Below the pieces are notes generated by a model. It ran no database searches. It saw only the letters and a list, made by a program, of their open reading frames with translations, and was not told where the DNA came from. Shown piece by piece: positions 2,937 to 60,884 of a stretch of DNA of 64,000 nucleotides. Both the position numbers and the translations under genes were made by a program. This DNA is from Natronobeatus ordinarius (GTDB lineage: Archaea; Halobacteriota; Halobacteria; Halobacteriales; Natrialbaceae). The DNA lies in the NCBI RefSeq assembly GCF_024362485.1, contig NZ_CP101456.1, positions 3,162,001 to 3,226,000 on the forward strand, in the 5' to 3' direction. Positions within the stretch are counted from its first letter, which is position 1. The number at the start of each line of letters is the position of its first letter.

Positions 2937-3046
2937 CGCCGAATAGGGGCTCGAGCACCTCTGGAGAGTGACCCCGCTTACGGCACTCACTTTCACTTTC
3001 ACTCCGGACGGATCGGATTGACGTACGGTCACGACCACTGACTGGT

Positions 3047-42841: not shown

Positions 42842-44695
42842 GTGATGCTCGTCGCCGTCGTCGCCGTTATCCTCGCCCTTGGCGTCGCCTCCCGCGTGCT
42901 CGCGGATCGACTGCAGATCCCGAGCGTCCTGTTCCTGATCCTGGCTGGGATCGCGATCGGTCCCGAAGGAGTCGGGCTCGTCTCCGAAGCGACGTTCGGC
43001 GGCGGGCTCTCCGCGATGGTCGGCGTCAGCGTCGCCATCATCCTCTTCGAGGGCGGCTACCACCTGCACCGTCGCAAACTCCGGGAGAGTAAAACGGCAC
43101 TGTTCCGGATCACCACCGTCGGTGCACTGATCACCTGGCTCGGGACGGCGGCCGCCGTCGTCGTCTTCCTCGACACCAGTCTCGAGGTGGGTCTGCTCGT
43201 CGGCGCGCTGTTGATCGCTACGGGTCCGACGGTGATCGGCCCGATCCTCCAGGTCGTCACCGTCCGTGAGCACGTCGCTGCCGTCCTCGAGGGCGAGGGC
43301 GTGATCAACGACGTGACGGCCGCAATCTTGGTCGTCGTCGTCTTCGAGGTGCTCATCGTCGGCACCGGCGGCACGATGCTATTCGTCGGGGAGTTCCTCC
43401 GGCGGCTGTTCGTCGGGCTGGCGTTCGGCGCGCTCGTCGCGGCGATCGTCTGGCTGGTACTCAGCCGCGGGAACCTCGCGCCCGGCACCGGCCCGCTCCA
43501 CGCTCGACTGATCGTCCTCGCCGGCGTCGTCGTCGCCTACGGCGGCGCCGAACTGATCGCGGGCGAGACCGGGATCGCCGCTGCAGCCATGGCGGGATTC
43601 GCACTCGGGAACGTCGACCTGCCCCACCACGAGGAGGTGATCGACTTCCTCGACGACCTTTCGGTGGTCGTCCTCTCGTTCATCTTCGTCGCGCTGGCGG
43701 CGCTGATCGACTTCGAGGACATCCTCACGCTCGAACTGGCCGGGCTCGCCATCGTCGTCGCGATCACGATGGTCATCCGGCCGACGGTCATCTATCTGGC
43801 GACGACCAACGAACGGTTCACTCGCAACGAACGACTGTTCCTCAGCGCCGTCGGCCCGCGCGGGATCATCCCCGCCAGCGTCGCGACGCTGTTCGCCGTC
43901 GAACTGCAGGCGCTCGGCCGGCCACAGGAAGCGCAACTCCTGGCGGGGACCGTCTTCCTGCTCATCTTCGCGACGGTCATCCTCCAGGCCGGCCTGGCAC
44001 GACAGATCGCGGACGTACTCGAGGTTTCACCAATGCGCACCATCATCGTCGGCGGGGGACGGGTCGGCCTGTCACTCGCCGAACGGCTCGAAGCCGACGG
44101 AGAGAACGTACTGCTCGTCGACCAGGACCCCGATGCGGTCGAGAAGGCCCGTGAACGCGGCCTCCGTGCGCTCGAGGGAGACGGCACCGACGCCGACGTG
44201 CTCGAGCGCGCTGGCGTGACCGAGGCGAAGACGATCACCGCTGCCACGCCGGACGACGACGTCAACCTGCTCGTCTGTCAGCTCGCGAAGACGAGCTTCG
44301 GCGTCGAGACGGTCGCCTCGCGGGTCAACCAGCCCGAGAACGTCGACGCCTTCGAGGCGCTCGGCGTGCGGGCGATCGACCTCTCGATGGCGACCGCCTG
44401 GTCGCTCGAGAACGTCTTAGAGCGGCCGTCGCTGTCGGCATGGATGAACGAACTCGGCCGGACCGGGGACGTTCAGGAGATCGAAGTGACGGCGTCGGAC
44501 CTCGTCGGCAAGACGATCGCCGAACTCAACGCCGAGATTCCACACGGCTGTCTCGTCGGCTTGCTCACGCACGCCGATGGGACCACGGAGGTGCCGACCG
44601 GCGACCACGAGCTCCGGGACGGGGACCGCGTCACGTTCCTCGGGCGGACGGACGCGGTAGACCGCGCCGTCAAGCGGTTCCATCCGCACGACTGA
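42842..44695 (+). CDS. CPA1/NhaP-type Na+/H+ antiporter with TrkA-N and TrkA-C domains
   Basis: 617 residues. Twelve or so helices to about 395, including the ion-site region LEGEGVINDVTAAILV (Asn-Asp pair), then a RCK/TrkA-N domain (TIIVGGGRVGLSLAERL, about 398-515) that binds NAD(H) or nucleotides, and a TrkA-C domain (HELRDGDRVTFLGR) at the end. The regulatory domains probably gate sodium/proton exchange. Start GTG at 42842 or ATG at 42845; the two cannot be separated. It is unrelated in sequence family to the CPA2 exchanger at 8.2 kb. Confidence 0.88.
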   Translation: MMLVAVVAVILALGVASRVLADRLQIPSVLFLILAGIAIGPEGVGLVSEATFGGGLSAMVGVSVAIILFEGGYHLHRRKLRESKTALFRITTVGALITWLGTAAAVVVFLDTSLEVGLLVGALLIATGPTVIGPILQVVTVREHVAAVLEGEGVINDVTAAILVVVVFEVLIVGTGGTMLFVGEFLRRLFVGLAFGALVAAIVWLVLSRGNLAPGTGPLHARLIVLAGVVVAYGGAELIAGETGIAAAAMAGFALGNVDLPHHEEVIDFLDDLSVVVLSFIFVALAALIDFEDILTLELAGLAIVVAITMVIRPTVIYLATTNERFTRNERLFLSAVGPRGIIPASVATLFAVELQALGRPQEAQLLAGTVFLLIFATVILQAGLARQIADVLEVSPMRTIIVGGGRVGLSLAERLEADGENVLLVDQDPDAVEKARERGLRALEGDGTDADVLERAGVTEAKTITAATPDDDVNLLVCQLAKTSFGVETVASRVNQPENVDAFEALGVRAIDLSMATAWSLENVLERPSLSAWMNELGRTGDVQEIEVTASDLVGKTIAELNAEIPHGCLVGLLTHADGTTEVPTGDHELRDGDRVTFLGRTDAVDRAVKRFHPHD

Positions 44696-56754: not shown

Positions 56755-58104
56755 TCAGTCGACGATCTGGATCAGGTTGCCGTTTCGCGAGACGTGGACG
56801 TCACGACCCATGGCGTAGCCTTCGCTCTCGCAGAGATTCACGTAGCCCGACAGTCCCTTGAGGTCCTGGTGGGCGGGGATGATGTGCTGGGGCTGGAGCG
56901 CGTCGAGCATCGCGTAGTGGCCTTCCTGGTTGAGGTGGCCGGAGACGTGGATGTCGGAGTAGACGCGTGCACCCTGCATGCCGAGCAGTTTCTCGGACTG
57001 ATAGCGCTGACCCTCGTTGGTCGGTTCGGGGATGACTCGGGCGGAGAAGACGACCTTGTCGCCGTCGTCGAGTTCGTACGGCGTCTCGCCGCGAGCCATG
57101 CGGGTCAACATCGCGCGGGGTTCGCCCTGGTGGCCGGTGACGACAGGTAAGAAATTCTCCTTGCCCTCGTTCATGATGCGTTTGAACGTGCGGTCGACGG
57201 ACTTGCGGTGACCGAACATCCCGAGGTCGGAGGGGAAGTCGACGAAGTCGAGTCGCTCTGCCGTTCCGGAGTACTTTTCCATCGAGCGACCGAGCAGGAC
57301 GGGCTGTCGGCCGATGTCGTCGGCGAACTCCACGAGCGACTTCACACGGGCGATGTGACTCGAGAACGTCGTCGCGACGATGCCGCCGTCGTAGTCTTCC
57401 ATGCTGTAGAGGACGTCCCGGAGGTGCTCCCGGGCGACGCGCTCGGAGGGGGTGCGTCCTCCCTTGTTCGCGTTGGTACAGTCCTCGATGTAACAGAGCA
57501 CGCCCTGGCCCTCGCGGCCGATCTCACGGAAGCGCTTCATGTCGATCGGGTCACCGATGACGGGCGTGTGGTCCATGCGCTTGTCCAGCCCGTAGACGAT
57601 CGCGCCCTCGGGCGTGTGGAGGACGGGGTTGATCGCGTCGATGATCGAGTGGGTCACGTTGACGAACTCGAGTTCGACCCCGTGATTGCCGATCGTCATC
57701 GACTCGCCGGGGTCCATCTTGATCAGGTCGTTCTCGACGCCGAACTTCTGTTCGCCCTCGATCTGCTGTTTGACGAGCTCGATCGTAAACGGCGTCGCGA
57801 CGACCGGCGCGTTGTACCGGTGGGCCAGCTTCGAGATGGCGCCGATGTGGTCTAAGTGACCGTGGGTCGGGACGATCGCCTGGACGTCGCCCTCTAAGTC
57901 GGACATGACCCGGTCGTCGGGGATCGCGCCCATGTCGATCAGGTCTAAGCTGTGCATCCGCTCGGTCTCGACGTTGTCGTGGATCAGGACCTGTGAGAGG
58001 TTCAGACCCATGTCGAAGATGACGACGTCGTCACCGGCGCGGACAGCAGTCATCTGCCGCCCGACTTCCTCGTAACCGCCTACCGTTGCAATTTCGATTT
58101 CCAT
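56755..58104 (-). CDS. rnj: Archaeal ribonuclease J (beta-CASP)
   Basis: 449 residues from the ATG at 58104 ([18 protein letters not shown]). Metallo-beta-lactamase motif [10 protein letters not shown], later VTHSIIDAI (motif 3) and [19 protein letters not shown], with the beta-CASP insert between. A 5'-3' exoribonuclease for RNA turnover. An in-frame ATG at 58140 adds 12 residues and overlaps the stop of a small upstream frame; family members usually begin at the 58104 position. It has an unusually long and structured leader (see 58105-58285). Confidence 0.93.
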
Positions 58105-58285
58105 GGTTTGTAGCACTGAAAGCCGCGTGTGGACTCTCATCGAAACGGTCCGCGGACTCCCGGTTTCGCTCGGCCCCTGCGTCTCGACGCGTCGGCCATC
58201 CCGCTATACACCCGGAGGAGATCACCTCCTGTCGATTCACGGGAACCCCGTGACCTCGAGTGTACTTGCCCGCGGGTTTCGCTAC
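58105..58285 (-). promoter_or_regulatory. Long structured 5' leader of RNase J mRNA
   Basis: AGTTTTTAAC on the minus strand (58306-58315) would start transcription near 58283, giving a leader of about 180 bases, while most genes here look leaderless. Within it AGGAGGTGATC (58220-58230), a full Shine-Dalgarno, is part of a GGAGG/CCTCC hairpin (58214-58229) that could hide it. A second hairpin CACGGG/CCCGTG lies at about 58238-58252. Confidence 0.45.
58137..58211 (-). CDS. Possible 24-residue upstream frame before RNase J
   Basis: GTG at 58211, eight bases after AGGAGGTGATC. The basic peptide ([18 protein letters not shown]...) ends in TGA overlapping ATG 58140, which is in frame with RNase J. 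This arrangement would couple leader translation to RNase J. The peptide could be chance. Confidence 0.35.
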
Positions 58286-58568
58286 GATCCTCTACTCCCC
58301 CCGTCGTTAAAAACTCCGTGGGTTGGCGGTAGTCCTGCCTGGAGCTGATCCGAGAGCGTCGTCGAGTCCGCTCGATCGGCGCAGACGTGCCCACTCGAGT
58401 ACCTCATCGGCATCGTGTGCGAGCAACGTCGCCGACCGAACCGAATACTGTGTCTTTGTCAAATTCCCCTCCCATTTTAGTCCATCAAAATTATTATTCA
58501 GTGTGAATATGACACGATCGACTCCGCTATGCAAACATATCTAACCTTCCGTTCGAAAGCTCCTGGCG

Positions 58569-60884
58569 ATGGCAAAAGATCTCGAGCGCGACCTCGGGTT
58601 GTTCGCCGTGATCGCGATCAGCATGGGTGCGATGATCGGGAGCGGCATCTTCATCCTGCCGGGGATCGCGATGGCCGAGGCGGGGCCGGCAGTCATCCTC
58701 GCGTTCGTGATCGCCGCGATCCTCGTGGTTCCCGCGGCGCTCAGCATCGCCGAACTCGGAACGGCGATGCCCGAAGCCGGCGGTGACTACGTCTTCATCG
58801 AGCGCGGGCTCGGCCCCTCCTTCGGGACGATCGCCGGGCTCGGCACCTGGCTCATGCTCATGCTCAAGGGATCGCTCGCGCTCTACGGCGGCATGTTCTA
58901 CATCAACTTCATTTACACGCTCCCGACCTGGGAGCTCGCGGTTCCGGGGCTGGGCGCGACGCTCCCGATCCCCGGCGTCCGAGCGCTCGGGATCACGTTC
59001 GCGCTCGCCCTCATCGCGGTCAACCTGGTCGGGGTCAAACAGACCGGTGGCCTCCAGCTCGTGATGGTGATCGTCATGCTCGTGATCCTCTCGGCGTTCG
59101 TCGCCGGCTCGATCGTCCAGGTCGAGGGGGTCAACTACGACGGCTTCTTCGCCGAAGGACTCGACGGGATCCTCACCGCGACGGCGCTCGTGCTCGTCTC
59201 GTATGCCGGGGTGACGAAAGTCGCCGCCGTCGCCGAGGAGATCGAAAATCCCGGTCGAAATCTCCCGCTCGGCCTGCTCGTCTCGCTGCTCGTGACGGCG
59301 TTTCTCTACGCGCTGCTCGTGTTCGTGCTCGTCGGTGTCGTCGAGGGCGACCAGCTGGCCGACTCCGAGGAGCCGATGGCGCTGGCGACTGATCTCCTGT
59401 TCGGGGGAACGATCGTTCCGCTCCCGATGATCGGCGAGTTCGCAATCGGGCCGCTCACGGTCGGTGCGATCGTCCTCGCGGCCCTGCTCGCACTGATCAG
59501 CACCGCCAACGCGGGCATCCTGACGGCGTCGCGCTACCCGCTCGCGCTCAGCCGTGACGGGCTCTTCCTGAAACGGTTCGAGTACATCCACCCGCGATTC
59601 TCGACGCCGTTCGTCGCGATCCTCACCACCGGGGCGATCATCGTCTTCATCGTCGCCACCCAGGACGTCGACCGGATCGCGAAGATGGCCGGGGCGTTCC
59701 AGATCCTCGTCTACATCCTCGTCTGTGGCGCACTGATCGCGTTCCGCGAGCGCGACCTCGAGTGGTACGATCCCGACTTCTACACGCCGGGCTACCCCTG
59801 GGTGCAGCTCTTTGGCATCGTCTCGGGCGTCTTCATCATCACCCAGATGGACGCCGCGGAGATCCTCGGCTCGATCGGCATCGTGCTCTTCGGGCTGCTC
59901 TGGTTCAAATGGTACGCGGCAGACCGGATCGAACGCGAAGGCGCCGCGAAGGGACTCGCCCGCCAGGAAGCCGGCCGGAAGTTCGTCCGCGACACCGAAG
60001 ACCAGCTCGAGCGTGAGGACCGCTACGAGGTGCTCATCCCGCTTCGTCGGGACGTCAGCCGCGAGCAGGAAGACGCCTTACTCCAGCTCGCCGCGCCGAT
60101 CGTCCACCGGCAGGGTGGTCGAATCCGGATCGTCCGGTTCGATGAGGTGCCCGACCAGGTCCCCCTCGACACCGCCGCCGAGACGCTCTCCGAGGACGAC
60201 GTCGAGTTCGAAGCGCGAACCGACGAACTCGTCCAGTACTTCGAGATTCCCGTCGAGGTCGGCGAGATCGTCAGCCACGACAGCCGCCACGCCGTCGTCA
60301 ACTTCGCCGAACGGTCGGGCGCTGACCTCATCCTCGCGCGCCACGAGGCGACCAGCCGACTCGGGACGCTGTTCGGCCGCGACGAGGACTGGATCATAGA
60401 GCACGCCCCCTGTGACGTCGTCTTCGTCCAGCAAGAGCGTCCCGTCACCGTCGACGAGATCGTGATCGTCACCGACCGCAGCCCGTTCAACGACCCCCTC
60501 AAGGTCGAACTCGCCGACGCGGTGGCGGACGTGCTCGGTGCCCGGCTGCGGTTCGTCTACGCCGTCCCCGAAAACGGGGCCGAGGAACTGCTCGAGACCA
60601 TCGAGGCGTACCACGCCGACCTCGACGACCTCTGTACCGTCCCCGTCGAGTCGACGATCGTCCAGGCGAACGACGCCGTCGCGGGCCTCTCGAGCGAACT
60701 CGAGGACGCCGACGTCGTCATGCTGAGCACGATGACCCACCGACGGATTCCGGACCTGCTCGTCGAACAGCGCTCGGACCGACTGGCGGCCGCGATCGAC
60801 GGCCCCGTCCTGCTCGTCCACTCGAAGAAGAGCCGCCGGGGATCGTTCCTCCGGCCGATCCTCGAGCGCGTGCTGTTCGATTAG
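58569..60884 (+). CDS. APC-type amino acid transporter with tandem stress-protein domains
   Basis: 771 residues. Residues about 10-440 are the twelve-helix APC permease (ISMGAMIGSGIFILPGIAMAEAGPA in helix 1, ATALVLVSYAGVTKVAAVAEEIENPGRNLP). After a charged linker, about 475-625 and 635-770 are two universal-stress-type domains (VLIPLRRDVSREQEDALLQLA; EIVIVTDRSPFND...PVLLVHSKK). The C-terminal domains probably regulate uptake. The same transporter-Usp architecture is seen in this window with other exchanger families. Preceded by an AT-rich region; the start at 58569 fits the first conserved residues. Confidence 0.87.
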   Translation: MAKDLERDLGLFAVIAISMGAMIGSGIFILPGIAMAEAGPAVILAFVIAAILVVPAALSIAELGTAMPEAGGDYVFIERGLGPSFGTIAGLGTWLMLMLKGSLALYGGMFYINFIYTLPTWELAVPGLGATLPIPGVRALGITFALALIAVNLVGVKQTGGLQLVMVIVMLVILSAFVAGSIVQVEGVNYDGFFAEGLDGILTATALVLVSYAGVTKVAAVAEEIENPGRNLPLGLLVSLLVTAFLYALLVFVLVGVVEGDQLADSEEPMALATDLLFGGTIVPLPMIGEFAIGPLTVGAIVLAALLALISTANAGILTASRYPLALSRDGLFLKRFEYIHPRFSTPFVAILTTGAIIVFIVATQDVDRIAKMAGAFQILVYILVCGALIAFRERDLEWYDPDFYTPGYPWVQLFGIVSGVFIITQMDAAEILGSIGIVLFGLLWFKWYAADRIEREGAAKGLARQEAGRKFVRDTEDQLEREDRYEVLIPLRRDVSREQEDALLQLAAPIVHRQGGRIRIVRFDEVPDQVPLDTAAETLSEDDVEFEARTDELVQYFEIPVEVGEIVSHDSRHAVVNFAERSGADLILARHEATSRLGTLFGRDEDWIIEHAPCDVVFVQQERPVTVDEIVIVTDRSPFNDPLKVELADAVADVLGARLRFVYAVPENGAEELLETIEAYHADLDDLCTVPVESTIVQANDAVAGLSSELEDADVVMLSTMTHRRIPDLLVEQRSDRLAAAIDGPVLLVHSKKSRRGSFLRPILERVLFD

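Follow-up and report, generated by a model that had tools for sequence, protein, structure and literature searches.

Comparative evidence for a conserved structured leader RNA upstream of the RNase J gene in haloarchaea

The rnj gene and its predicted promoter

We analysed 64,000 nucleotides of the genome of Natronobeatus ordinarius (NCBI RefSeq contig NZ_CP101456.1, positions 3,162,001 to 3,226,000; hereafter the window), in which the gene rnj encodes the ribonuclease RNase J on the minus strand (Table 1). The protein matches the NCBIfam model TIGR00649 (RNase J family beta-CASP ribonuclease) at 422.8 bits, above the model's cut-off of 400, and its conserved start is the ATG at 58104-58102 (minus), from which it begins MEIEIAT. 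The DNA before this start codon is our subject: comparison with related genomes gives good support to the view that the rnj message begins with a conserved, structured, cis-acting leader RNA, present in several families of haloarchaea, through which RNase J may set its own level.

The usual archaeal distance between TATA box and transcription start was used to place the start of the rnj transcript. A TATA-like box, GTTTTTAAC, at 58314-58306 thereby puts the start near 58283, and the leader would be about 180 bases long. An earlier inspection of this DNA from its letters and reading frames (the sequence-only reading) had suggested a leader of this length in a lineage of mostly leaderless mRNAs, and the suggestion holds as a deduction from the position of the box. 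In Haloferax volcanii, 72% of protein-coding transcripts have been called leaderless, and only 97 untranslated regions (UTRs) exceed 150 nt. The box keeps its place among relatives, starting 36-41 bases before the nearly invariant CCCGCGGG in 111 of 112 distinct leaders of the window's type (class A), the commonest spacing being 37 (69/112). Of 170 distinct rnj upstream regions kept from 202 loci, 162 have their nearest TATA-like box (beyond 20 bases) at a distance of 120 bases or more from the start codon, and the pattern was unmatched in the remaining 8.

Table 1. Positions of rnj, its leader and predicted elements in the window
Feature	Position	Strand	Basis or status
rnj, RNase J, 449 aa	56755..58104	minus	NCBIfam TIGR00649 and Pfam RNase_J_b_CASP
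Conserved structured rnj leader RNA (putative), class A	58105..58283	minus	R1 match, identity; no Rfam family
TATA-like box GTTTTTAAC of the rnj promoter	58306..58314	minus	sequence position
Predicted transcription start, about 58283, at P1 5' strand	58281..58285	minus	TATA-to-start distance
P1 5' strand with nearly invariant CCCGCGGG (seg1)	58268..58281	minus	pairs with 58157-58141 in folds
P1 3' strand GTCCGCGGACCGTTTCG	58141..58157	minus	folds, complementarity tests; covariation not significant
P2 arm: stem GTACACTC (58265-58258) / GGGTGTAT (58213-58206), two variable hairpins	58206..58265	minus	compensatory changes
Second P2 hairpin, with Shine-Dalgarno sequence and CCTCC complement	58214..58230	minus	arm folds
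P3 arm, GGCC...GGCC and apical loop region	58172..58197	minus	alignment, model
Last hairpin TGAGAGTC/GGCTTTCA, between junction and start codon	58117..58139	minus	folds; sequence kept in Natrialbaceae
24-codon frame of the sequence-only reading, GTG 58211 to TGA 58139-58137	58137..58211	minus	not conserved, judged incidental

Conservation and distribution of the leader

Named records supplied 80 rnj loci, to which further loci were added from other genomes. In a set of 56 class A leaders (that of the window and 55 from these named records), the leader has a mean pairwise identity of 0.66 (0.21 when shuffled), as compared with 0.19 for the DNA immediately before the TATA box (0.15 shuffled) and 0.92 over the first 180 coding bases of rnj. 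Feature counts were made on 137 distinct leaders kept out of 151, which include the 112 of class A mentioned above.

A covariance model of the class A leader, R1, was built from 35 of the 56 leaders, those kept in alignment A2, from which L014, near-identical leaders and some others were omitted; L014 was also omitted from alignment A1. R1 matches the window at 58138-58285 with 130.5 bits, the window's leader being among its own training sequences, and, searched against 392 genomes of the order, it finds a single match in each of 175, training sequences or their near kin included. Across 294 genomes of the phylum it finds 24, all within the same order. We checked the genomic position of 105 of the 175 matches, and without exception they directly precede rnj, on the same strand: in 90 that were fetched, weak ones included, the class A element lies 135-252 bases before the rnj start, and a further 15 lie 32-42 bases from rnj by coordinates.

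This linkage bears on the idea that the element is a small RNA in its own right, which acts in trans after processing or termination ahead of rnj; in favour of it, the compact conserved fold stops about 40 bases short of the start codon in Natrialbaceae. Conservation, however, continues through the last hairpin to the AUG, a bacterial-type scan of 57800-58700 found no terminator-like site, and the element adjoins rnj in every match checked. We consider a trans-acting RNA very improbable.

Twenty genomes without an R1 match, holding 21 rnj loci, were opened. A TATA-like box stands 120-260 bases upstream of rnj in 17 of these loci, the others being L217, L227, L228 and L229, and the strict core CTGNAAGAYGCCG is present in L210, L214, L216 and L219. 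L227 and L228 belong to two deep lineages of the order (families f9 and f11) and have A+T-rich rnj upstream regions, in which we saw no sign of the leader; the region in L228 carries AAAGGTGAAATACATG, a Shine-Dalgarno-like (SD-like) start.

The leader corresponds to no family in Rfam 15. The window has no match at gathering score, known riboswitch families included, and a relaxed search of 58000-58450 (up to E = 10) returned three chance-level matches to other families, with E of 2.5-3.7. The family rne5, the Rfam name of the enterobacterial rne 5' UTR, was not among the covariance-model matches in that interval up to the same limit. Seven diverged leaders compared with Rfam matched one small RNA family only, at E of 0.26 and 0.69 and far below its gathering score. 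The 17-base core GCTGYAAGACGCCGGGG, allowing up to three mismatches, occurs 71 times in the genome as against 60 times in a reversed control, which gives no sign of a second site; the idea that the leader mimics another genomic RNA was dropped on this ground, the occurrences being near the control level. A description of an rnj leader was not found among the open-access PMC articles listed, and HVO_2724 is named in two papers for other reasons. As an RNA family, and in Archaea, the rnj leader appears undescribed in the literature so covered; as the leader of an RNase gene, it is of a kind already known.

Predicted fold of the class A leader

The likely fold of the class A leader, according to our models, consists of a three-way junction of helices P1, P2 and P3 together with a hairpin before the AUG. 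Pairing in P2 and P3 is well supported by comparison. We aligned 27 chosen diverse leaders with plain MAFFT (alignment A7, not structure-fitted) and scanned the result for all helices: the first-ranked helix is P2 (20 double-change cells, 5/6 pairs, 94% paired) and the second is the outer part, or extension, of P3 (8 double-change cells, 3/3 pairs, 79% paired). When the 3' letters were re-dealt among the A7 sequences, a control that ignores kinship among them, the means were 4.4 cells for P2 and 3.4 for the P3 extension, and 0 of 500 dealings reached the observed values. The R1 alignment of 72 leaders, which is fitted to the model, points the same way, with 93.5% of 1817 cells paired as against 33-59% with slid partners, and with double-sided changes in 18 of 26 pairs (157 cells versus 43.4 in shuffles, 0/500 as high). 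Compensatory changes are found there in all six pairs of P2, where the window has GUACAC/GUGUAU in place of the GUGCG/CGCAU of most leaders. Helix 1 of R1, good on the fitted alignment and not in independent tests, was left uncounted.

The P3 extension (seg2/seg3) covaries in the diverse alignment, is short in Natrialbaceae, and is built from unrelated sequences in different leaders, such as GGGACCGA/UCGGUCCC in L157 and GCGAGUGCCAGA/UCUGACGCUCGC in L180. Its duplex energy falls below 0.05 against shuffles in 7 of 29 leaders, and a leader's own partner is better than a swapped one in 23 of 29. The apical loop of P3 has the consensus CUGYAAGACGCC in relatives and has diverged in the window. As regards a conserved structure in the leader, the sequence-only reading is supported.

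The first structure, that of model R1, was different: it paired CCCGC with GCGGG after P2 (helix P2a) and contained a small local hairpin, P4, and it has been superseded as the main fold by the P1/P2/P3 arrangement, with which it shares the R1 helices P2b, P3a and P3b. In folds of 114 leaders, with regions cut by pattern and an "after P3" region wider than P1 alone, CCCGC pairs with the part after P3 at a mean probability of 0.81, versus 0.03 for its P2a partner. The P1-side pairing is favoured in 113 of the 114 and P2a wins in one; in L160 and L162 the after-P3 pairing reaches only 0.18 and 0.34. P2a is kept as a pairing that could compete, between CCCGCGGG and the GCGGG after P2.

A competing pairing of this sort is one attraction of a different proposal, namely that the junction and P3 loop are bound by a metabolite, an ion or an RNA-binding protein other than RNase J, which thereby sets the translation or stability of rnj. 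The compact junction, the strongly conserved CUGYAAGACGCC loop and the nearly invariant CCCGCGGG resemble a binding core, and CCCGCGGG has two possible partners, the GCGGG that follows P2 and the 3' part, which would provide two states. In the leaders L180-L184, CTCGCGG and its complement occur twice each, four segments having changed together with both alternative pairings intact, which is what a two-state switch would need. Set against this proposal are the lack of any Rfam match to a riboswitch or other family, the strength with which folding favours one pairing, and the absence of the leader from any other gene among the 105 checked matches, where a metabolite sensor would often be shared with further genes. 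We judge control by such a ligand to be unlikely, though it deserves more weight than the other alternatives considered here.

The sequence-only reading had proposed yet another mechanism, in which a full SD sequence is hidden in a hairpin and a coupled upstream frame feeds an extended RNase J start. All the pieces exist in the window: AGGAGGTGATC at 58230-58220 (minus) is followed by the complementary CTCCTCC at 58220-58214, and an ATG at 58140-58138, in frame with RNase J (open reading frame 56755-58140), overlaps the TGA of the 24-codon frame. Although GGAGG is found in 27 of the 112 distinct class A leaders, AGGAGG occurs in one, that of the window. The hairpin that bears it belongs to the variable part of P2. 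Of 76 P2 arms of at least 45 bases, 63 have at least two hairpin loops and 68 a last hairpin with a stem of at least 4 pairs; across the 76 arms there are 67 distinct last hairpins, with stems such as GGAGG/CCUCC, GGCGG/CCGCC, GACGG/CCGUC and GGGGA/UCCCC, and six contiguous bases of the SD string appear in the window's only. The frame fares no better, since the frame that opens at the conserved GCGGG-ATG extends to 20 codons in 19 of the 112 leaders, ends after five codons in 33 (at the TAA of CTGTAAG) and lacks its ATG in 52, and an overlapping ATG that shares the RNase J frame, with no intervening stop, is present in 2 of the 50 leaders that have TTTCGATGAG. Three 37-codon frames in this survey belong to an upstream gene and not to the leader. 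Thus, the paired SD sequence and the overlapping frame are real in the window, and the leader that contains them is conserved in identity and in its R1 matches; as a conserved mechanism, however, the hidden ribosome site and coupled frame are refuted by the poor conservation of both, and we assign this proposal almost no weight.

There are 16 copies of the full SD sequence AGGAGGTGATC in the genome (5 forward and 11 reverse, counting that of the rnj leader), and none of a reversed control. Besides the leader it stands in the window at 43632-43642 (+) and at 14 other genome places, some of which may be complements of rRNA.

Leader classes and possible feedback by RNase J

A second leader, class B, precedes rnj in 16 of the 80 named-record loci, nine of them labelled Haloarculaceae, and is 185-224 bases long, with a TATA-like spacing of 31-32 in 15 of 16. 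In all 16 aligned leaders, CCGAG at the predicted 5' end is able to form pairs with the CUCGG that immediately precedes the AUG, and a second helix has 8 pairs, 2 of them with double changes. A short model, R2, which covers only the 5' hairpin of class B, matches 104 of the 392 genomes of the order; at least six of these also have R1, and there the R2 match is probably due to chance. The 20 class B matches that were fetched all precede rnj and have CTCGG before the AUG.

When the leader classes are mapped onto a phylogeny of 95 RNase J proteins, 8 changes are needed, as compared with 26.4 for shuffled labels. In this tree L111 (G011 C1:2754602-2754648), of class B, joins L052 (Halovivax asiaticus), of class A, with a support of 98 and at a distance of about 0.05. 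These sister proteins carry different classes, which suggests that one leader was exchanged for another beside an almost unchanged protein, probably within what is apparently one genus, Halovivax. From such comparisons, classes A and B look interchangeable.

We propose that the leader sets the level of RNase J by feedback, with RNase J itself as the controlling factor, and put the probability of this reading at roughly 0.48. Transcription would start at the 5' strand of helix P1, and the RNA would form a three-way junction that P1 closes, with P2 as a variable arm and P3 ending in the conserved apical loop; the last hairpin would follow, and about a dozen bases later the start codon. So folded, the leader would keep the message's 5' end concealed within P1 while permitting translation, and RNase J in excess would cut or trim the leader, whereupon its own message would decay. 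RNase J of other archaea has been reported as a 5'-3' exonuclease, and the archaeal enzyme (aRNase J) of H. volcanii is essential and has been shown to have endonuclease activity (PMC10470531); with both activities reported, trimming from the 5' end and internal cutting are each possible. Feedback is the likeliest reading in view of the linkage to rnj in every match checked, the several forms of leader on one gene, a 5' end that is probably helical, and the precedent of Escherichia coli rne, pnp and rnc, whose feedback is described in PMC3997798. That RNase J regulates itself had already been suggested by the sequence-only reading, and the idea is reasonable; we infer RNase J as the controlling factor, as we do the transcription start and P1.

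A broader form of this proposal, which we hold tentatively and with less confidence than feedback itself, takes in both classes: at least two unrelated and interchangeable leader architectures, A and B, would tie up the 5' end, and RNase J would read its own abundance from the accessibility of the mRNA end, while class A might in addition switch between two states, according to which of its two partners CCCGCGGG takes. If true, this would be the first autogenous RNase leader in Archaea, within the literature searched.

The same tying-up of the 5' end would serve a leader that senses nothing and merely shields the rnj mRNA from 5'-3' decay while fixing a lower rate of translation. The five pairs that can connect the predicted 5' end with the sequence immediately preceding the AUG in all 16 class B leaders fit such a role, as does the lower translational efficiency of leadered relative to leaderless haloarchaeal mRNAs that is stated in PMC8241225. 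A passive hairpin, however, has no need of an invariant loop and junction sequence, yet class A keeps both across families, and we find this explanation improbable.

Feedback by RNase J would have parallels elsewhere. The leader resembles the enterobacterial rne 5' UTR, through which RNase E exerts feedback, in being a long, conserved, structured, cis-acting 5' UTR on the message of a main mRNA-decay RNase; it differs in being archaeal, in serving another RNase family, and in having a three-way junction and a probably helical 5' end, with feedback that we infer. RNase Y of Bacillus subtilis likewise controls its own message, rny, according to PMC10303841, whereas the conserved element in rnj is untranslated. 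Our candidate is akin to the structured RNAs proposed by comparative genomics in PMC2864571, which were also found by comparison; the text of that article mentions neither haloarchaea, RNase J nor ribonuclease, and the rnj leader has no Rfam 15 family. Among archaeal structured leaders, the fluoride riboswitch of Thermococcus kodakarensis is called the only experimentally determined natural riboswitch of Archaea in PMC8241225, and the rnj leader differs from it in lacking an Rfam match and in preceding another gene. The leader is found in several haloarchaeal families on an RNase gene that is essential in H. volcanii (PMC10470531), and if RNase J does control it, archaea would possess an RNase self-limitation of their own, akin to that of bacterial rne, pnp and rnc.

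Several results weigh against the structured leader or its control by RNase J. In 217 of the order's 392 genomes R1 has no match. The leader in the window has an unremarkable folding energy (z = -0.24, with 79 of 200 shuffles as stable), so that the case for structure is built on comparison and not on stability; the relatedness of the genomes, for its part, inflates the support expressed in p-values. A control that permuted the 3' halves on A7 gave 0.913 versus 0.913 paired and, covering neither P2 nor the P3 extension, is uninformative. P1 is weak. Among leaders chosen for these tests, of which 26 of 30 were scored for the first eight bases and 29 of 30 for the duplex, complementarity of the first eight bases of P1 to the 3' part falls below 0.05 in 0 of 26, and that of CCCGCGGG alone does so in 7 of 26; with CCCGCGGG included, the P1 duplex falls below 0.05 against shuffles in 10 of 29, and a leader's own partner beats swapped ones in 21 of 29. 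Covariation of P1 on A7 is not significant, 32 of 500 dealings reaching the value of its inner part and 67 and 197 of 500 those of the outer. The folds and these comparisons are suggestive of a real P1 helix; since the covariation control does not support it, the weight that we give to feedback, and to its broader form, is slightly lowered. In class B, the closing helix is invariant and hence beyond covariation testing, and no site shared between classes A and B was found, in the course of work that included no systematic comparison of the two. Finally, there is a third leader, class C, on three rnj genes of Natrialbaceae (L066, L069 and L082) that form a clade of their own.

The class C leaders carry a CAACCGAAAGACGCGCTGTC-like sequence upstream of position 3001, and L066 and L069 are second rnj copies, beside L022 and L021. 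As for the surroundings of rnj, its upstream neighbour varies among loci, the only point that we draw from a crude longest-frame rule; by the same rule, which set several frames wrongly, a permease-related gene apparently adjoins rnj in 18 of 79 loci. In the window the upstream neighbour is divergent, an amino acid permease with a universal stress domain at 58569-60881 (+), and a geranylfarnesyl diphosphate synthase gene lies downstream of rnj.
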